From: Bacteroidales bacterium
Lineage (GTDB): Bacteria; Bacteroidota; Bacteroidia; Bacteroidales; VadinHA17
DNA length: 64,000 bases
Direction: 5' to 3'
Assembly (NCBI GenBank): GCA_029932855.1
Contig: JAOZPG010000003.1
Span: forward strand, 1-64,000
Shown: one piece after another, positions 28,948-38,946 of the stretch
Numbering within the stretch: position 1 is the stretch's first letter
How the letters are laid out: every line of letters begins with the position of its first letter
Program-made: the position numbers and the translations under genes
The notes under the pieces: generated by a model
What the model saw: only the letters and a program-made list of their open reading frames with translations
Told to the model about the DNA's origin: nothing
Database searches by the model: none

Positions 28948-29658
28948 ATGACCGGAGAAATACAACTGCTTGCAATAACTGCCGCTTCTGTAGCTTTGTT
29001 TCATACCCTTTTGGGTCCCGATCATTATTTGCCATTTATAGTAATGTCGAGATCGGGGAAATGGTCGCTGGCAAAAACCCTGTGGATTACGGCAGCCAGT
29101 GGCCTGGGTCATGTATTAAGTTCAGTTGTGCTTGGCATTATTGGAATAGCACTTGGTGTAGGGGTAAACAAAATGTCGGGGATAGAAGAGGGGAGGGGGA
29201 ACTTTGCTGCATGGATGCTTATTGCTTTCGGACTGGCATATATGATATGGGGAATACGCAGAGTTTACAGGAACAGGCCACACACACATATACATGTTCA
29301 CAGTGATGGTACATTGCATGATCATCCTCATTCACATAACAGTGTTCATAGCCATGTACATAAGGAAGGAAAAAAGAATCTTACTCCCTGGATACTTTTT
29401 ACAATTTTTGTGCTGGGTCCGTGCGAACCACTGATACCCATATTGATGTATCCGGCCGCAGAGGGTGATTTTACAGGCTTATTCCTGGTTACTTCCATAT
29501 TTTCGCTTATCACAATACTTAGCATGCTGGCAGTAGTAATAGTCGGTTATTTTGGTTTGAACTTCCTTCCCCTGGGCAAGCTTGAGAAATATACCCACGC
29601 CCTGGCCGGCGGTACAATAATGCTAAGTGGTATTGCAATTATCTTCATGGGGCTTTAA
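28948..29658 (+). CDS. His-rich metal transporter-like membrane protein
   Basis: A 236-residue protein with about six hydrophobic segments and a cytoplasmic-type His-rich loop near residues 110-135 (HTHIHVHSDGTLHDHPHSH). It has LLGPDHYLPF near the start and LGPCEPLIPI in the second half, resembling NicO/RcnA/UreH-type nickel or cobalt transporters. The [NiFe] hydrogenase about 5 kb away suggests Ni2+ handling, but direction and metal are unproven. It is convergent with gatD, the two stops being 17 bp apart. Confidence 0.7.
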   Translation: MTGEIQLLAITAASVALFHTLLGPDHYLPFIVMSRSGKWSLAKTLWITAASGLGHVLSSVVLGIIGIALGVGVNKMSGIEEGRGNFAAWMLIAFGLAYMIWGIRRVYRNRPHTHIHVHSDGTLHDHPHSHNSVHSHVHKEGKKNLTPWILFTIFVLGPCEPLIPILMYPAAEGDFTGLFLVTSIFSLITILSMLAVVIVGYFGLNFLPLGKLEKYTHALAGGTIMLSGIAIIFMGL

Positions 29659-29675: not shown

Positions 29676-31061
29676 CTATTTATGCACCCTTCTTACAAAG
29701 TCGTCAACCTCGGGTATACCTCCCTGGTAAACAAGGTAGCCATTATATGGTTCTCGTTTGGTAATCTCGTCATTAATTGGTGTAAGCATCATCTTTTTAA
29801 CCTTTTCAGGCTCATTTGTCTGGCCCAGTATCCAGCTTAGTTTTACCCATGCTACCTCGGGCAGCATATTCCCTGCGGGGATGATCCCTCTGGCCATCAT
29901 ATCCCTTCCGGTGTCATATACAAACATATGTACGTATCCCCACAGTGTCTGAAGGGTCATATACATATGAACTCCTTTTTCCCTTGCCCTGTCTATGGCA
30001 GGGTAAAGTTCTTTGTTTACATGGCCCAGTCCGGTGCCTACGAATATTATTCCCTTGTATCCTTTATCTACCATAGCATCCAATACATCGGGCCGCATTC
30101 CCGGGTAATAATAGAGCATGCTTACATCCTTGCTGAAGTAGGGGAGTATCTTTACCTTCCTGTCATTCCTCCTCTTGTTATAGCTGGTTTTAATCAGGTC
30201 TATCTTCTCTCTGCTTACCATTGCCAGGGGTGTGTCGCCTATGGTACGGAAGGTTGACCTGTATGATGAATGCATCTTCCTCACCCTTGTTCCTTTATGC
30301 AGCAGGCCATAATCATCAGACGTAGGGCCGAACATACATACCATTACCTCGGCTATATCCGATTGGCCGGCTGCTTTCATGGCATGCATAAGATTGAGGG
30401 CTGCATCAGAACTGGGCCTGTCTGAAGACCTTTGGGAACCGACCAGTACTACTGGCACAGGCAGGTCCTGACACATGAAGGACAGGGCAGCTCCTGTATG
30501 ATGAAGGGTGTCTGTACCGTGACCTATAACAATGCCATCAACACCTTTTTCAATTTCTTTGCCAATGGCTTTTGCCAGTGCTATATATTGTTTGGGCCCC
30601 ATATTTTCGCTGAACACTGCAAATACTTTTTCTGTTTCCAGGTTGCAAATATCAGCAAGTTCTGGTACAGCTCCATAGAGCTCTCCCGGCGAGAAGGCAG
30701 GTATTACCGCACCTGTCCTGTAGTCAAGCCTGGATGCAATGGTGCCCCCGGTACCGAATAACTTTACCCTGGGAAGTCCGGGGGTGACAGGGAATTCCTT
30801 TTCAGGTATCTTATAGCTTGCCTTTTTATAACCAGTTTCCTTCATCTTGCTTATAGTATCTACGGCAATTCCTATATTATAACCTGTGATTATTTTAATA
30901 ACAATATGTTTATCATCATCATTCTCGGCCCGTGGCAAAACCGTTCCCCTGAATTCTCCCCTTGTGGTTATCACTTCAGCCTGTCCCCATACTCTTACCC
31001 GGTATTTTTTCAGTATTTCCAGTGCCTCTCCGCGGTATCCTTGAAATATATCATTATCCAT
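29676..31061 (-). CDS. gatD: Glu-tRNA(Gln) amidotransferase subunit D (archaeal type)
   Basis: GatD is an asparaginase-like subunit that releases ammonia from Gln or Asn for the GatE reaction. The 461 residues comprise an N-terminal SH3-like domain (about 1-95) and then an L-asparaginase fold: FGTGGTIASRLDYRTG (first catalytic Thr), VIGHGTDTLHHTGAAL (second Thr and Asp), and VGSQRSSDRPSSDAALNL with conserved Ser/Asp residues. The N-terminal domain distinguishes it from plain asparaginase. Its start overlaps the gatE stop by 8 bp (ATGGATAA), so the two are translationally coupled. GatDE is known as an archaeal enzyme. Confidence 0.9.
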   Translation of the reverse strand: MDNDIFQGYRGEALEILKKYRVRVWGQAEVITTRGEFRGTVLPRAENDDDKHIVIKIITGYNIGIAVDTISKMKETGYKKASYKIPEKEFPVTPGLPRVKLFGTGGTIASRLDYRTGAVIPAFSPGELYGAVPELADICNLETEKVFAVFSENMGPKQYIALAKAIGKEIEKGVDGIVIGHGTDTLHHTGAALSFMCQDLPVPVVLVGSQRSSDRPSSDAALNLMHAMKAAGQSDIAEVMVCMFGPTSDDYGLLHKGTRVRKMHSSYRSTFRTIGDTPLAMVSREKIDLIKTSYNKRRNDRKVKILPYFSKDVSMLYYYPGMRPDVLDAMVDKGYKGIIFVGTGLGHVNKELYPAIDRAREKGVHMYMTLQTLWGYVHMFVYDTGRDMMARGIIPAGNMLPEVAWVKLSWILGQTNEPEKVKKMMLTPINDEITKREPYNGYLVYQGGIPEVDDFVRRVHK

Positions 31062-33009
31062 TTGTCTGGGCCTCCCTGATTTTATTGCTTAAGTCATGTA
31101 GTTTGATGTTGCCTGTGGATAATTTCCTCAGCTGTCCCATTATCCAGTTATGTTCATTGTCCGGGTTGCTATTTATAGCTGTTTCCCGGAATTTTGTTAT
31201 AAGTAATGGTATCCTGCTGAATATATGTTCTTTATCGGTCTTTTTAAACTTAAGGCTTTCCAGAACTGAGTCAAAATCCATTTTCGGATGTTCAAGTAGA
31301 AGAGGAAGCATCTTTTCGGCAAGCTTAAGATCTATCTTTTTCTTTAGCAGGTAGGCAAATAATTCAAAAATCCTTTGTGTATGGAGCTTTTCCGGGCCAT
31401 GAATCCTGCTTTCATAGAATTTGATTGTTTGTCCTATAAACCTGCCGGCATATCCGGGATCTGTGCCCAGCTCTTCAATGATGCTTTCCAGCAAAGGGAA
31501 CAGGTTTTTTGAGAAAATATAAGTGTAGCTGTCTTCAGGAATTTGCCATGATCTTAGTTTAGAATATCTGTTAATGATATATGATGGAAGAGCCTTGCCC
31601 CTTTCTTCAATATATTCAGAACTAAGAGGAATTGGTATTGTATCCGTATCGGGGTACATACGGTCTGCTCCTGGTAATACCCTTTCAAATACAGTAGTGC
31701 CATCTGCCAGTGCTTTACGTGTTTCCCCGGGTACTCCGGTAAAGGCCATGATGCATCTTTCTTCAATTGTTTCAATGGCAGTTTTTATATCCTGCTCAGG
31801 TCCCCAGAAAATGAGTTGGGCATCTTCTTCACCCGATCCCAGGACTTCCCTTATTTGTTTCCAGTCTTTAGCTCCAAGTTTGTTTTCCAGATCTTCAGAA
31901 TGTATCATGTTAGGCTTTTCAAGACAGGCAATAACTTTAAGCCTGTCTGAGATCTCATCTGCAAATACTTTTCCGGGCTGGGTGAAGTGCGACATAATAG
32001 CTTTGAATCCGGGAAGGTTAACTGCTGTCATCTTTTCGCCGGGTTTTTCAATAAGTATATTTATCTTGTTATCAAGAGGCTTATGACTTATCTTAAACTT
32101 TTCAGCTGTTGTGAACCTTTTCTTTAAGAGGGACATGATTCTTAGCAATGCCCATTGTCTGAAAGCCTCATTATGAGTAAGTTCGGGTATCCACTTACTA
32201 TGTGCTACTCCTTTTATCTCAACCCTCGATCCTCCTTTACAGCTTACATTTACATCCTGCCTTCCTGCTCCCATTCCTGTTCTTACCTTGTTTGTGCTCC
32301 TGTTCAGGAACCTTATATAATCACAGGCCTGTCTTGCTTCATCCGGGTTTATGCAGTCGGGGTAAGTTACTGTCTCAATAAGCGGCATCCCCAGCCTGTC
32401 GGTCTTGAAGACCCTTATATGTCCTTTATCTGATATCTCCCGGCATGAGTCCTCCTCAATGCTGAGCTGGATCAGGCGGATCTTCTTATGCGGAAGTTCT
32501 ATCTCCCCTTCAACACCCAGTATGGCTGTTCTCTGGAAACCTGTAGGGATACTGCCATCGAGATATTGTTTGCGTGTAATATGCACTTCCCCGACAATGT
32601 TCAGCTTTGACAGGAGGGATATCTCAATTGCTATATCCAGTGCTTCATTATTCATGGGAAAAGGAGGCGTATCATCTACTTCATAGGTGCAGGCCGTATT
32701 GTTCTTTATGCGGTAAAGTATTTCTTTCCTGGTCTTGAACTCCATAAGGGCTGTGCCATCGTATTCACCGAGCTCACTTAGTGTCGGCCTCATGTGTCTT
32801 ACAAGCTCTGCATCGTAATCATTATCCTTGTTATATATACCAGCCGGGCAATGACAGAATAATTTTTCGCTGGTAAGCAACTGTTGGTGCACTTCAAGTC
32901 CCGACATAAAACCTATCTTATCGTATGTTTCCTGTCTTGCTTTTAGCCTGGACACGTAGCCGGTGGCTCTTTTTGTTGACTGGTAGTTTTTTGCAGGATT
33001 TAATTTCAT
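31054..33009 (-). CDS. gatE: Glu-tRNA(Gln) amidotransferase subunit E (archaeal type)
   Basis: GatE binds Glu-tRNA(Gln), activates the glutamyl group with ATP and converts it to Gln-tRNA(Gln). The 651 residues match full-length archaeal GatE, including the mid-protein AspRS-like insert (about residues 290-420) that bacterial GatB lacks. Shared motifs are GLEVHQQLLTSEKLFC near the start and DGSIPTGFQRTA, and the C-terminal tail has GatB/YqeY-like helices ending IREAQTNG. It heads a two-gene operon with gatD. The presence of an insert-containing GatE with GatD argues against a misread GatB. Confidence 0.9.
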   Translation of the reverse strand: MKLNPAKNYQSTKRATGYVSRLKARQETYDKIGFMSGLEVHQQLLTSEKLFCHCPAGIYNKDNDYDAELVRHMRPTLSELGEYDGTALMEFKTRKEILYRIKNNTACTYEVDDTPPFPMNNEALDIAIEISLLSKLNIVGEVHITRKQYLDGSIPTGFQRTAILGVEGEIELPHKKIRLIQLSIEEDSCREISDKGHIRVFKTDRLGMPLIETVTYPDCINPDEARQACDYIRFLNRSTNKVRTGMGAGRQDVNVSCKGGSRVEIKGVAHSKWIPELTHNEAFRQWALLRIMSLLKKRFTTAEKFKISHKPLDNKINILIEKPGEKMTAVNLPGFKAIMSHFTQPGKVFADEISDRLKVIACLEKPNMIHSEDLENKLGAKDWKQIREVLGSGEEDAQLIFWGPEQDIKTAIETIEERCIMAFTGVPGETRKALADGTTVFERVLPGADRMYPDTDTIPIPLSSEYIEERGKALPSYIINRYSKLRSWQIPEDSYTYIFSKNLFPLLESIIEELGTDPGYAGRFIGQTIKFYESRIHGPEKLHTQRIFELFAYLLKKKIDLKLAEKMLPLLLEHPKMDFDSVLESLKFKKTDKEHIFSRIPLLITKFRETAINSNPDNEHNWIMGQLRKLSTGNIKLHDLSNKIREAQTNG

Positions 33010-33457: not shown

Positions 33458-33709
33458 TTATCTTTCAGTACGGGGCTTAGCTTCATTAACTCTCATGTTA
33501 CGACCTTTAAGATCGCTTTCATTCAATGAGCTAATAGCTTCGCTTGCTTCCGCATCGTTAGGCATTTCAACAAAGCCGAAACCTTTTGAGCGACCTGAGT
33601 ACTTGTCAGTGATAATGCTAACATTTTCAACATCACCAAATTCACCAAAAACATTTTTCAAGTCATCTTCTGAAACACTGTAAGGCAGGTTTCCTACGTA
33701 AATATTCAT
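33458..33709 (-). CDS. RRM-domain RNA-binding protein
   Basis: An 83-residue single RNA recognition motif protein. RNP2 is IYVGNLPYSV at the start and RNP1 is SKGFGFVEM (about residues 40-48), with the aromatic residues that stack on RNA bases. The frame opens eight codons further up, but MNIYVGNLPYS is the usual start of this bacterial family. Small RRM proteins are common in Bacteroidota, where they are proposed to be global RNA-binding regulators. It stands alone with about 115 bp to the hox operon end. Confidence 0.93.
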   Translation of the reverse strand: MNIYVGNLPYSVSEDDLKNVFGEFGDVENVSIITDKYSGRSKGFGFVEMPNDAEASEAISSLNESDLKGRNMRVNEAKPRTER

Positions 33710-33849
33710 AAAAAAAAATTTAAAACTGTACACTTAATCATAAAAACCTTCAATTAACAAGTGTACCAATCAATTAAAAGCCATAAATCTGCGCCAAATA
33801 TACTATAATATTATCTAAATGCTCAAAAAACGGCAAATTATTATGAATA

Positions 33850-34347
33850 TCAGGCAGTTTTGTTAAGTATTCCGGCTAGTTTCCCGGGATTCAGGATGAT
33901 GGACCTGGCCTGCTCAATGGCCTGATTGAGATTGTTTTGAGCTTTTTTACTAAGGCCTTCACTGAATTGCCACTCATATCCCTTAATATGTATCAGGTAT
34001 GTTTCGGGTTTCTTGTTATAAATTTTTTTGCACAGATCGAGTACAAAAGCCGGGGATACTGCATGCATACTGAATTCTATCTTTGAATCTGAGGGACTAA
34101 GCATGCTAAGGCTTATATTGTCTATATCTTCTTCCGAGGCATCCGCAAAGATAACTATATCATAATTTGATATTATCTCGGCATCTTCTATATTCAGCTG
34201 GTAGTTGGTTTCGCAGTAAACATTCCCTATGCCTGTTTTTTCTGTCCATGCTTCTATTTCTTCTGCCAGTTTTATTCCCAGTCCGTCATCATACCTGCCG
34301 GGGTTGCCATAGCCATAGATCAGTATTTTTTTGTCAGTTTTTGTCAT
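33850..34347 (-). CDS. hoxW: Hydrogenase maturation protease
   Basis: A nickel-dependent endopeptidase that clips the C-terminal peptide of the hydrogenase large subunit once the metal centre is inserted. The 165 residues begin with ILIYGYGNPGRYDDGLG, the family signature with the first metal-binding Asp (YDDG), and a second acidic site is near FADASEED. It lies 35 bp after hoxH in the same operon, so HoxH is its expected substrate. Confidence 0.88.
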   Translation of the reverse strand: MTKTDKKILIYGYGNPGRYDDGLGIKLAEEIEAWTEKTGIGNVYCETNYQLNIEDAEIISNYDIVIFADASEEDIDNISLSMLSPSDSKIEFSMHAVSPAFVLDLCKKIYNKKPETYLIHIKGYEWQFSEGLSKKAQNNLNQAIEQARSIILNPGKLAGILNKTA

Positions 34348-34382
34348 AGAAAGCGATATAGAAGAAATGTTAGCAGCTAAAC

Positions 34383-35837
34383 TTAGCCGGAATATTTTTT
34401 ATCAATAATATTAGAATCCTTATCTACCAGTGATATCTCAAGAGGCATCTTCCCCAGGGCATGCGTGGCACAGCTCAGGCATGGGTCATATGCCCTTATT
34501 GCAACCTCAACAGCATTAAGCATTCCCTCTGAGATAACTGCATGGCCGTTCAGGTACTTTTTAGCAACAGATTCCACAGCCAGGTTCATGGGAATATTAT
34601 TGTTAGTTGTTGAAACAATAAGGTTTGCCATTTCTATCTGGTCGTTCCGGTTAATGCGGTAATGATGAAACAATGTGCCACGGGGCGCTTCAAGCAGGCC
34701 CACTCCTTCAAGGGTCTTATTGCCCTTAACCACGAGATCATTACCCATTATATCATCATCGTTCAATAATTCTTTCATCATTTCTGCTGAATGAAGGATC
34801 TCTATTAGTCTTGCCCAGTGCATATGCATTGACATTCCATTAGGCTTACCATTAGTATATGCCCTGAATAGTTCATGTTCTTTTTGTGCAAGTGGTGTAG
34901 GTATAAAATCTACTGTATTCATCCTTGCCAGCGGGCCAACCCTGTACCAGCCGTCCTGTTTACCTATTTCTTTAAGGAATGGGAATTTCATATAAGTCCA
35001 GTTTTTCACTTCTTCCCCTATGTAGCTGGCATAGTCCTGGTAATCAATGTCGTGAAGTATCTTCTTTCCTTCAGAATCCACAGCCCTCAGAACCCCGTGG
35101 TAAAGGTCCATTGCCCCGTCTTTTCTAACCAGACTGAGATGAGAGGAGGGGAAGCTGGCAAAATCGTCAATCAGTTCCCTGTTTGCCTTATGATATCCCT
35201 TGAAAAACTCAAGAGCCCCCAGCGACCATTCTATCATTTTATCAATATTAAGAGGGTCTTCTCCTTTCAGGAAGCTGTCTCTTTCTTCTTTGCTAAGGCT
35301 TTTGTTTATTCCTCCGGGGATGGCTCCGGTACCATGTATCTTTTTTCCTGCAGTAGCCTGAATTATTTCCTGTCCAAACTTTCTCATCATTACACCCTGT
35401 ACGGCAAGATCTTTATGTTCAAGTGCCACTCCAATGATATTCCTGATGTTGGGATCTGCATTAATGCCAAAGAGCAGGTCGGGTGATGCCAGGTGAAAGA
35501 AGTGAAGGGCATGCGACTGGAATATTTGTCCGTAATGCATAAGCCTTCTCATTTTTTCTCCTGTGGGACTAAGGCCGTCACCTGTTCCTGCACCCACAAT
35601 CATGTCCATTGCTTTTGCTGCTGCCAGGTGGTGGCTCACGGGACAAATTCCGCAGAGCCTCTGAACCAGTACCGGTGCCTCCCAGTAGGGCCTTCCCTGT
35701 ATAAATCTTTCAAATCCCCTGAATTCCACAATGTGAAGCCTGCTTTGAACAACCTGGTTATCATCATCCATGTGGATGGTTACTTTTCCATGGCCTTCCA
35801 CCCTGGTTACCGGTTCTATAGTTATTTTCTTTGGCAT
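34383..35837 (-). CDS. hoxH: [NiFe] hydrogenase large subunit HoxH
   Basis: The catalytic subunit that oxidises or makes H2 at a NiFe(CN)2CO centre. The 484 residues show the L1 motif RLCGICPVSHH (about residue 60) and the L2 motif DPCLSCATH near the C-terminus, giving the four Cys ligands. A 25-residue extension after the L2 His is the part expected to be removed by HoxW. L1 and L2 spelling and the gene order fit group 3 cytoplasmic NAD-coupled hydrogenases. It lies 11 bp after hoxY. Confidence 0.93.
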   Translation of the reverse strand: MPKKITIEPVTRVEGHGKVTIHMDDDNQVVQSRLHIVEFRGFERFIQGRPYWEAPVLVQRLCGICPVSHHLAAAKAMDMIVGAGTGDGLSPTGEKMRRLMHYGQIFQSHALHFFHLASPDLLFGINADPNIRNIIGVALEHKDLAVQGVMMRKFGQEIIQATAGKKIHGTGAIPGGINKSLSKEERDSFLKGEDPLNIDKMIEWSLGALEFFKGYHKANRELIDDFASFPSSHLSLVRKDGAMDLYHGVLRAVDSEGKKILHDIDYQDYASYIGEEVKNWTYMKFPFLKEIGKQDGWYRVGPLARMNTVDFIPTPLAQKEHELFRAYTNGKPNGMSMHMHWARLIEILHSAEMMKELLNDDDIMGNDLVVKGNKTLEGVGLLEAPRGTLFHHYRINRNDQIEMANLIVSTTNNNIPMNLAVESVAKKYLNGHAVISEGMLNAVEVAIRAYDPCLSCATHALGKMPLEISLVDKDSNIIDKKYSG

Positions 35838-35848
35838 TTTCCTGGTTT

Positions 35849-36394
35849 TTAGTCGTACTTAATTAGTTCGTAAGGCAAGTCAATATCTACATCAAGTATC
35901 AGTGCGTGCAGTACCTCCCATATCAGGTCGGCACGGGGAGGGCATCCCGGGAGATGGTAATCCATTTTTACAATTTCATGACATGGATATACTTTGTCAA
36001 GAATAATAGGCAATTCTTCATCATTGGGAAGTATCCCTTCTTCATTCACCGTTGACGGACCCGACAGGTATGCCTCTGCAAGACATTCTTTAACAGGGAT
36101 ATCGTTTCGCATTGCAGGAAGGCCACCCATAATGGCACATTCACCAAATGAGACAAGTATTTTGCATTTTTTCCTGAACTCCTTGAGTATATGAATATTT
36201 TCAGTGTTGCAGCATCCTCCTTCAATAAGGCCTATGTCGCAGTCTTTTGTAAAGCTTTTTATATCATCTATCGGCGACTTGTTAAACTCAACAAGTTCGA
36301 TAAGATCCAGTATCCTTTCATCGATGTCGAGAAAAGACATGTGGCAGCCAAAGCAGCCTGCCAGTGATGTGGTTGCTATTACAGGTTTACTCAT
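35849..36394 (-). CDS. hoxY: [NiFe] hydrogenase small subunit HoxY
   Basis: The electron-relay subunit carrying the proximal 4Fe-4S cluster. At 181 residues it is short, with no twin-arginine signal, so the enzyme is cytoplasmic. The Cys ligands appear as GCFGC (14, 17), EGGCC, GECA and LPGCPPR, in the order typical of HoxY. It overlaps the end of hoxU by 8 bp, indicating coupled translation. Confidence 0.92.
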   Translation of the reverse strand: MSKPVIATTSLAGCFGCHMSFLDIDERILDLIELVEFNKSPIDDIKSFTKDCDIGLIEGGCCNTENIHILKEFRKKCKILVSFGECAIMGGLPAMRNDIPVKECLAEAYLSGPSTVNEEGILPNDEELPIILDKVYPCHEIVKMDYHLPGCPPRADLIWEVLHALILDVDIDLPYELIKYD

Positions 36395-37145
36395 GATGTG
36401 CCTCCTTCATAGCTTTTAGGTTAATTGAATTATCCAGGCTGATAGCTTCTTTGTCAAACTTTCTTTGTCCTATGGGTGTTTTAAATCCTGTTTCCTTAAC
36501 CAGGATGGATCCCACGGGACAAATGTCCATTGCCTTTTGTGCCAGTTCATCCGACAGCTCTTTTCCCAGCCTGTCATCCAGTTTTATCTTTACTTTTTTT
36601 GCTCTCTGGTTAAATGCAAAAATACTTCTGCCCTGGCTGCCGGCAGGCAAGTCTTTTTCATCCTTAATTATCCTTATACATCTTTTGCACAGTATACACC
36701 TGTTGTGATCATGATATATTTTGGGGTGGCTGGCATCAACATCTCTTTCATTGAACTGGTAGGGGAACCTGGGGGCCATTATCCCGAACCTGTATGCAAG
36801 AGCTTGTAGCTCACAGTTACCGCTTTTTTCACATGCAGGGCAATAATGATTGCCTTCTGTAAAAAGCAGCTCTATAACCGAGCTTCTCAGGTCATTCAGC
36901 TCAGCCGTATCAACTTCAATTTCCATTCCTTCAGCCACAGGTGTTGTACAGGCTGTAAGGTGGCGCTTGTTTACCTTTACCGTACATACCCGGCATGAGC
37001 CTGCAGGCTTTACTCCTTCATAGTGGCAGAGCGTAGGAATAAAAATACCATTCTCGCGGGCTGCATTAATGATGCTTACCCCGGTTGTTGCAGTACATTC
37101 TTTGTTATCAATGGTAAAATGGGCTATTTTCTTTTCCATGTTCAT
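36387..37145 (-). CDS. hoxU: Hydrogenase diaphorase iron-sulfur subunit HoxU
   Basis: This corresponds to the N-terminal part of NuoG and wires the hydrogenase to the NAD-reducing flavoprotein. The 252 residues hold a 2Fe-2S ferredoxin domain (CHYEGVKPAGSCRVC with a further Cys), an N5-type ligand set HYCPACEKSGNC, and an N4-type set CILCKRC plus CPVGSI near residue 210. All ligand sets look complete. It lies 4 bp after the hoxF stop. Confidence 0.9.
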   Translation of the reverse strand: MNMEKKIAHFTIDNKECTATTGVSIINAARENGIFIPTLCHYEGVKPAGSCRVCTVKVNKRHLTACTTPVAEGMEIEVDTAELNDLRSSVIELLFTEGNHYCPACEKSGNCELQALAYRFGIMAPRFPYQFNERDVDASHPKIYHDHNRCILCKRCIRIIKDEKDLPAGSQGRSIFAFNQRAKKVKIKLDDRLGKELSDELAQKAMDICPVGSILVKETGFKTPIGQRKFDKEAISLDNSINLKAMKEAHHE

Positions 37146-37149
37146 TTAT

Positions 37150-38946
37150 TTAAATATTGGGTATCCTGTCTACAAATTCACATGACTCCCTGATTGCATC
37201 ATCCAGGCAGAATCCCGATTCAAATTCAATATCTTTCTTTAACCTTTCCCTGTACAGGTGCCTGAAATTCTTAAGGCTGGTGATTATAGGGTTTGCTGCA
37301 GTATGTCCTAATCCACAACGATTTATGGGCATCATTTTAGCCCAGTTGTTTATATCGTCGAAATCTTTGTTTGTAGCTTTTCCTTCAAGAATTTTTTCAA
37401 GTTTCTGTTTTAAAAGTGTGGGTATATTTCTGCATGGTACACATGAACCGCATGATTCTTCAATAAAGAATTCCATGAAGTTAAGAACCACATCTTTTAG
37501 CAGGTCCCTTCTGTTGTCAATCACTATCATAGAACCTCCGGTGGCAAGGTCGGAATAACAAACGTTTCTGTCAAACTGTTCAGGACCTATCAGGGCTCCG
37601 GATGGTCCGCCAACCTGTACGGCCTGTGTGTTGCGGGCTCCTACCATTTCAAGTAATGTCCTTACTGTAAAGCCCCATTCAAGTTCATATATGCCCGGGA
37701 ACAAACAGTCGCCTGAAACACTCAGTATCTTTGTACCTGTTGATTCTTTGGTGCCTAGTTTCTGATACCATTCCCCCCCGTTTTGTATTATGCGAACAGC
37801 AGCTATCAGTGTTTCAACATTATTTACTACAGTGGGGAATCCTAAATATCCTTTTTCCACAGGGAAAGGAGGCCTGTTTCTGGGTTCTCCGCGCTTACCT
37901 TCTGCAGATTCAATAAGTGCCGATTCCTCACCACAAACATATGCTCCCGCACCCAGTTGTATCCTTATGTCAAATTCAAAATCCTTAATACCCCCGGGAT
38001 TTTTCCCAAGACTATTATTCTTTCTCATCTTATCCAGAACATCTACGAGGTATTTCCTTAGGTACCTGTACTCATACCTTAAATAGAGTATTCCTTCAGA
38101 GGCTCCTATTGCATAGGCGGCTATCACCATTCCTTCAAAAACCATCCCGGGTTTTTCAGTTAGTATTACCCTGTCTTTGAAAGTTCCCGGCTCACCTTCA
38201 TCGGCATTACAGAATACATATTTCTTTTCTCCTTTGGCTTTCCTGGCAAATTCCCACTTGATACCTGTTGGAAATCCGGCGCCTCCTCTTCCCCTGAGGT
38301 GCGATTTTTTAAGTTCGTTAATAACATCCTGTGGACTCATTAGAGCTACCTGCTTTTTCAGGGTTTTTCCTGGAATATATTCCTGCCCCAGAATCGGACC
38401 GGTTCTTTTAAGCGAATTACGAACACAGCTTTTTATCAGTGGAGATGAGTTCATGCTATCTCCGAAAGTATTTGCAAACATATCATCCACCTTCATTCCC
38501 AGGCGCATATCCCTTATCAGTTCCCTAACCCTGTATGTTGTAAGGTTGGTAAATACTTTCCCGTTGATGAGGGCAGCAGGCTCCTGATCGCTCATTCCTA
38601 TACAAGAGGTTTCAAAAAGTCCTATATCATCCTTTACTTCGCCGAATTCGCAGCCCAGCTCATCTTTGAAGGCCTGGGCAACAAATTCCCTTCCTTTCAT
38701 ATTTGCTACAACACTGTTGTTCAGGCATATGGAATACTTTCCCCTGGGTTTAGTGGAATAAAAATGGTAAAAGGAGATAGTCTGCTCAACATCAGCAGAT
38801 GACATATTCAGCTCATCGGCTATTATATCAACCTTATCCATGGGGATATAATTGGTCTTATGCTGTATATCATACAATATATCCATTAACCTGGTCTTGT
38901 CATGCTTATACTTATCGAGGATGCCGTGAATTTCTTGTGTTGTCAT
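37150..38946 (-). CDS. hoxF: Hydrogenase diaphorase flavoprotein HoxF (NuoE-NuoF fusion)
   Basis: The NAD(H)- and FMN-binding subunit that couples H2 turnover to NAD+/NADH. The 598 residues consist of a NuoE-like domain (1-150) and a NuoF-like domain with GRGGAGFPTGIKW, NADEGEPGTFKDR and the 4Fe-4S ligands ESCGSCVPCRN and RCGLG. In the NuoE-like part only Cys74 and Cys115 of the usual C-x4-C and C-x3-C pairs are kept (Val79 and Ser119 replace the partners), so a normal 2Fe-2S cluster there is doubtful. It is first in the hoxFUYHW operon, with a Rex-like site 30 bp upstream. Confidence 0.9.
   Translation of the reverse strand: MTTQEIHGILDKYKHDKTRLMDILYDIQHKTNYIPMDKVDIIADELNMSSADVEQTISFYHFYSTKPRGKYSICLNNSVVANMKGREFVAQAFKDELGCEFGEVKDDIGLFETSCIGMSDQEPAALINGKVFTNLTTYRVRELIRDMRLGMKVDDMFANTFGDSMNSSPLIKSCVRNSLKRTGPILGQEYIPGKTLKKQVALMSPQDVINELKKSHLRGRGGAGFPTGIKWEFARKAKGEKKYVFCNADEGEPGTFKDRVILTEKPGMVFEGMVIAAYAIGASEGILYLRYEYRYLRKYLVDVLDKMRKNNSLGKNPGGIKDFEFDIRIQLGAGAYVCGEESALIESAEGKRGEPRNRPPFPVEKGYLGFPTVVNNVETLIAAVRIIQNGGEWYQKLGTKESTGTKILSVSGDCLFPGIYELEWGFTVRTLLEMVGARNTQAVQVGGPSGALIGPEQFDRNVCYSDLATGGSMIVIDNRRDLLKDVVLNFMEFFIEESCGSCVPCRNIPTLLKQKLEKILEGKATNKDFDDINNWAKMMPINRCGLGHTAANPIITSLKNFRHLYRERLKKDIEFESGFCLDDAIRESCEFVDRIPNI

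Follow-up and report, generated by a model that had tools for sequence, protein, structure and literature searches.

The two-subunit amidotransferase GatDE is the textbook archaea-only enzyme, making glutamine on its tRNA. What, then, does an apparent gatE-gatD pair do in the genome of a Bacteroidales bacterium (VadinHA17) that also encodes a glutaminyl-tRNA synthetase (GlnRS)? A preliminary description of this DNA, made from the letters alone, had called GatDE an archaeal enzyme, in agreement with reviews up to 2022, which restrict it to archaea (PMC9499178, PMC8007984). Co-evolution of GatDE with archaeal tRNAGln has been argued, and this co-evolution is held to have excluded GlnRS from archaea (PMC9499178). 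In a survey of how bacteria charge Glx tRNAs, Bacteroidetes were recorded as GlnRS-positive and GatCAB-negative, and GatDE was not counted (PMC3927822). No paper reporting a bacterial GatDE was found in the literature searched, subscription journals lying mostly outside the search. Database annotation probably records the bacterial enzyme silently, since NCBIfam models would name GatD and GatE. Our preferred reading, to which we assign a probability of about 0.6, is that the operon encodes a working GatDE that acts as an auxiliary Glu-tRNAGln amidotransferase beside GlnRS.

The gatE-gatD locus

The window is the whole stretch of DNA analysed, 64,000 nucleotides (positions 1 to 64,000 of contig JAOZPG010000003.1). 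The locus has the following features.

31054-33009, minus strand: gatE, amidotransferase subunit, 651 aa (NF003107 and TIGR00134 above cut-off, model matches, region conservation)
29676-31061, minus strand: gatD, asparaginase-like ammonia-producing subunit, 461 aa (TIGR02153; PF18195, PF00710 and PF17763)
31054-31061, minus strand: 8 bp shared by the end of gatE and the start of gatD (ORF coordinates)
32926-33009, minus strand: extension at the GatE N-terminus that contains the motif NY..(7)..GYV.R (alignment)

Both reading frames are full length and overlap by 8 bp, as first described, and the overlap points to probable translational coupling of the two genes. In NCBIfam profile searches, GatE scored 466.6 bits against NF003107 (cut-off 456) and 406.6 bits against TIGR00134 (cut-off 319.6), and fell far under the cut-off of every GatB model; GatD scored 504 bits against TIGR02153 (cut-off 324). 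The extra N-terminal domain ascribed to GatD at the outset is a Pfam match to PF18195 (GatD_N), which precedes the asparaginase domains PF00710 and PF17763. The nearest solved relatives by sequence are the archaeal GatE and GatD of Methanothermobacter thermautotrophicus (2d6f) and Pyrococcus abyssi (1zq1). The initial assignment to GatDE, rather than to GatB plus a plain asparaginase, agrees with the curated cut-offs, the GatD_N domain and the AspRS-like insert described below, which together rule out the alternative identification.

GatD adjoined GatE in 107 of 110 loci. Wherever both ORFs were called (98 loci), the genes were adjacent and co-oriented, and the median distance between them was 14.5 bp (at most 100 bp in 86 of the 98). 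Other neighbours varied between loci while the pair itself was constant, and no partner gene beside it was common to more than 13 loci. The two genes are thus kept together while their neighbourhoods change, so selection acts on the pair jointly; its retention in more than 100 loci also rules out a chance ORF.

Several other features of the window were recorded. A cluster for an NAD-linked [NiFe] hydrogenase occupies 33850-38946 (minus strand) and consists of a large subunit, a small subunit, a HoxU-like protein and a 598-aa protein in which NuoE-like and NuoF-like parts are fused. A 165-aa ORF beside it resembles a maturation protease and had no Pfam match. A membrane protein with a PF13386 (DsbD_2) domain and a histidine-rich loop is encoded at 28948-29658 (plus strand), convergent with gatD, and could be a metal (nickel) transporter for the nearby hydrogenase. 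A perfect Bacteroidota promoter consensus lies at 33795-33827 (minus strand), upstream of an RRM protein gene (33458-33733); across the window, matches to this consensus were no more frequent than expected by chance.

Fold, domains and conserved residues

An AlphaFold model of GatE (mean pLDDT 84, pTM 0.78) matched archaeal GatE (2d6f_D) with a Z score of 30.6 over 489 residues, compared with at most 23.6 for any GatB. The AspRS-like insert, only guessed at before, is present: residues of about 302-430 of the model align with the insert of bacterial AspRS (Z 10.2 to 6wom_A). A match to GatB lacking this insert, the outcome that had been named as contradicting the assignment, was checked for, and the archaeal GatE fold was favoured. 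With approximate limits, the domains of GatE are as follows.

Residues about 1-28: N-terminal helical extension
Residues 29-285 and 426-480: cradle
Residues about 302-430: AspRS-like insert
Residues about 481-535: helical domain
Residues about 536-651: tail

Residues 478-651 of the model form a helical and YqeY-like unit, along which GatB chains align as far as residue 651 and which also matches the N-terminal domain of human GlnRS (Z 9.2). The Pfam GatB_Yqey model scored 25.8 on the tail, just short of its cut-off of 27, indicating that the tail has diverged. GatE of the Bacteroidia type retains the NY..(7)..GYV.R extension; archaeal GatE lacks it, and in the other bacterial type it differs.

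The two-subunit organisation of archaeal GatDE (2D6F from M. thermautotrophicus, 1ZQ1 from P. abyssi) is also found here. Common to both are a GatD with an N-terminal domain and an asparaginase fold, and a GatE with a cradle, an AspRS-like insert, a helical and tail region and the catalytic residues. Each of the 100 aligned GatD sequences had T-T-D-K at the tetrad (T107, T183, D184, K262), and GatE residues E39, H41, E185 and E186 were invariant in all 112. Bacterial and archaeal copies are 30-36% identical for GatE and 44-49% for GatD, whereas archaeal copies are 50-58% identical among themselves (50-56% for the three archaeal GatE sequences). Unlike the archaeal enzymes, bacterial GatDE carries extra segments at the GatE N-terminus and the GatD C-terminus, the latter a conserved tail of about 20 aa that is absent from the two archaeal copies compared, and its helical and tail domains have diverged. 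GatB of bacterial GatCAB shares the cradle and tail plan of GatE (Z up to 23.6) but lacks the AspRS-like insert, and the amide-freeing subunit of GatCAB is an amidase, in contrast to the asparaginase-like GatD. By every structural test of membership the enzyme is a GatDE; its genomic setting differs from that of the archaeal pathway.

In the course of these comparisons we noted that the archaeal gatE on a large plasmid of Natrinema thermotolerans (CP031304.1, L155:6001-7484) changes frame midway and carries no annotation, reflecting either an assembly error or a pseudogene.

Divergence of GatE is unevenly distributed. Between the two bacterial types the cradle is 65% identical, and between bacterial classes the helical domain and tail are 19% and 13% identical; the corresponding values for P. 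abyssi and Natrinema GatE are 58% (cradle), 42% (helical) and 33% (tail). The helical and tail domains of GatB bind the D-loop, anchor the tRNA and are essential (PMC4027206). Such strong divergence of these domains implies that tRNA specificity may have changed. It is therefore conceivable, though we consider it unlikely, that GatDE has been repurposed, with GatE amidating something other than Glu-tRNAGln for translation, such as another charged tRNA or a charged tRNA for non-ribosomal use. In addition to helical and tail domains that diverge far more in bacterial GatE than between archaea, a long stem leading to the GatE clade of Bacteroidia (1.59, versus 0.46 for GatD), the bacteria-specific extensions of both subunits and the near-constant presence of GlnRS are consistent with a new substrate. 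However, conservation is high in the cradle and active site, with 81 GatE positions common to bacteria and archaea, and no conserved partner gene adjoins the pair. Synthesis of Asn-tRNA was rejected as such a role, as AsnRS is present in the host and this product is therefore not needed either.

Distribution among bacteria

A search with GatE against one genome per species found 158 relatives. The best 80 of these 158 came almost entirely from Bacteroidales or Bacteroidetes records, had 59-68% identity to the query and included the isolates Ancylomarina salipaludis and Perlabentimonas gracilis. Of 393 species sampled from the host's order, 163 had a GatD above cut-off, but only one of five sampled members of its own family did. 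A sample of 395 genomes from across the phylum contained 30 with GatE above cut-off, 28 of which carried a second type found in other classes (41-57% identical). Both types occurred in a second phylum, that of a GatE-bearing MAG labelled Neomarinimicrobiota (Fidelibacterota), where 25 of 149 genomes passed. Among the 14 genomes of a control set, four passed the GatE cut-off, which is the number of archaea included.

An isolated recent import from archaea into a single chromosome, as first envisaged, does not fit these counts in the order, the phylum and the second phylum. Contamination of a single MAG is likewise ruled out by the 163 species of the order and by the isolates. One GatD scan of IMG/VR revealed no GatDE on phage-like contigs. 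We also observed GatDE of the Bacteroidia type in MAGs whose label or placement is outside Bacteroidia (Ignavibacteria, Aminicenantes; L033/L047, L098 and L099), which represent either lateral transfer or mis-binned contigs.

Descent and transfer

Across 20 genomes, distances between GatE sequences correlated with those between glutamyl-tRNA synthetases (GluRS) with a Mantel coefficient of 0.86, and those of GatD with 0.85; within 13 Bacteroidia, the coefficient was 0.80 for each subunit (p = 0.0005, the smallest value possible with 2000 permutations). Long residence of GatDE and mostly vertical descent with losses would give such distances. In the GatE tree, where long branches meet at the root, bacterial sequences formed a deep group of their own, separate from the three archaeal GatE sequences; the archaeal sample comprised these three and two GatD, of which two were partial sequences from PDB alignments and the third came from the frame-shifted record. 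Rooting of the GatD tree was uninformative because its outgroup branch is extremely long. A strictly archaeal recent donor is disfavoured by an identity of only 30-36% to archaeal GatE and by the separate grouping, as judged with three archaeal GatE. On sequence grounds, bacterial GatDE may be nested among unsampled archaea, and the source and direction of transfer are to be read in that light.

A clade from the second phylum (10 genomes and L109) was nested in the Bacteroidia type, beside Ancylomarina, which implies lateral transfer between bacterial phyla. Thus, lateral transfer as such, proposed in the preliminary description, was seen between bacterial phyla, and the bacterial copies stood apart from the archaeal ones. 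Routine vertical inheritance across Bacteroidota, the opposite expectation, was borne out in half: the pair is common and old, but patchy. This patchiness within families, along with the nested clade, would also suit a gene pair of little function, either a dispensable remnant or a selfish passenger, kept by transfer between bacteria. We consider such an explanation very improbable, given that the catalytic residues and the pairing are all kept in about 100 loci, that both subunits track GluRS in their distances and that no mobile-element context was noticed around the genes.

Charging enzymes and tRNAs

The host genome (2.62 Mb, 96% complete) contains a full GlnRS (TIGR00440, 752 bits), one bacterial GluRS (TIGR00464), and AspRS, LysRS and AsnRS assigned by length and sequence. 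No match to GatA or an amidase was detected in this genome, nor any GatB other than the GatE studied here. The host therefore has a direct charging enzyme for each possible tRNA substrate of GatCAB or GatDE. The statement that bacteria use GatCAB or GlnRS, from which the inquiry had started, holds for GlnRS, and yet GatDE stands beside it; of the genes whose presence was in question, glnS was found, gatA and gatB were not, and GluRS is of the bacterial type.

A single tRNAGln(UUG) with a U1-A72 pair and a single tRNAGlu(UUC) with a G1-U72 pair were found in the host, and U1-A72 was likewise present in every tRNAGln gene that was recovered across 29 GatDE genomes. In contrast, archaea lack GlnRS and have A1-U72 in tRNAGln, and their GatDE is said to recognise A1-U72 together with the D-loop (PMC9499178). 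With tRNAAsn and tRNAGln, GatCAB depends on the U1-A72 pair (PMC9976931); GatDE here would face the same pair in tRNAGln. The archaeal route to Gln-tRNA, suggested earlier, is contradicted by GlnRS and by the U1-A72 pair. Since GlnRS is also present, GatDE is not the sole route to Gln-tRNA.

Two features of the tRNAGln genes were noted in passing. The host tRNAGln(UUG) (L133:1500-1573, contig C33) has a body closest to the tRNAGln(CUG) of relatives (96% to that of G525), and the tRNAGln(UUG) gene of several relatives has a shorter D-loop, unlike that of the host; either the anticodon has changed or the usual UUG gene is missing from the MAG. In G745, G461, G408, G402 and G736 (L188-L192), tRNAGln(CUG) lies about 85-133 bp downstream of glnS, which suggests joint expression.

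GlnRS accompanied GatD in 76 of 79 near-complete (at least 96%) genomes of the order, and GatDE in 60 of 73 genomes of a mixed set that included incomplete MAGs. GatA was above cut-off in 24 of 80 GatDE genomes, mostly from other classes. With GlnRS in the host and in these 76 genomes, there is no evident need for Gln-tRNAGln synthesis by GatDE. That GatDE is instead the main source of Gln-tRNAGln, in archaeal style, with a non-discriminating GluRS and a secondary or missing GlnRS, appears improbable. Six GatDE MAGs (G397, G399, G416, G432, G436 and G511) did have GluRS with no match to GlnRS, and in G397 and G399 no GatA was above cut-off either; however, the completeness of these two is not stated, and GlnRS is present in G613, a congener of G511. 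Two 99% complete GatDE genomes, G314 and G287, also lacked GlnRS, but had GatA and GatB, so that their GluRS must charge tRNAGln unless a GlnRS was missed. We do not claim that any bacterium relies on GatDE alone.

The host GluRS carries Arg358 of the discriminating Thermus thermophilus enzyme. The same residue occurs in GluRS of G314 and G287, and hence Arg358 is not decisive for discrimination; as a marker, it fails to distinguish GlnRS-bearing genomes from those lacking the enzyme. Results of GluRS mutations on discrimination vary between species (PMC3927822).

Proposed function of bacterial GatDE

Given that the cell also has GlnRS, the role of GatDE is likely auxiliary. Extrapolated from archaeal GatDE and from genomic context, its activity, substrate, tRNA recognition and role would be as follows. 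Glu-tRNAGln would arise by mischarging by GluRS. GatD would free ammonia from glutamine or asparagine by means of its Thr-Thr-Asp-Lys tetrad, and GatE would use ATP to activate the Glu side chain on tRNAGln, whose amidation would yield Gln-tRNAGln. To tell tRNAGln (U1-A72) from tRNAGlu (G1-U72), GatE might use the first base pair together with the D-arm. The benefit could be proofreading, or an additional source of Gln-tRNAGln at times of low free glutamine.

This reading is favoured by the family cut-offs, the fold match, the intact catalytic residues, the constant pairing and the U1-A72 tRNAGln, and by the lack of a GatA or GatB in the host that might carry out the amidation instead. Arguing against it, besides GlnRS and the diverged helical and tail domains, are Arg358, since a discriminating GluRS would make little Glu-tRNAGln (although the residue is not decisive here), and the frequent absence of the pair in relatives. 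A partial parallel is offered by Bdellovibrio, Deinococcus and Thermus, for which PMC4206432 places GatCAB beside GlnRS and AsnRS; here it is GatDE that stands beside the direct enzymes.

Implications

Bacteroidota have been taken to be GlnRS-only organisms; GatDE changes this view and raises the question of the purpose of a second route to Gln-tRNA. Bacteria that stably maintain GatDE, GlnRS and a bacterial-type tRNAGln make the co-evolution argument directly testable, and cultured hosts exist in A. salipaludis and P. gracilis. We see an even chance that Bacteroidota and at least one other phylum harbour a distinct bacterial GatDE lineage beside GlnRS, acting on U1-A72 tRNAGln or another tRNA, and serving quality control or regulated amidation rather than primary synthesis of Gln-tRNA. 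If true, such a lineage would contradict the view that GatDE is exclusively archaeal and excludes GlnRS.
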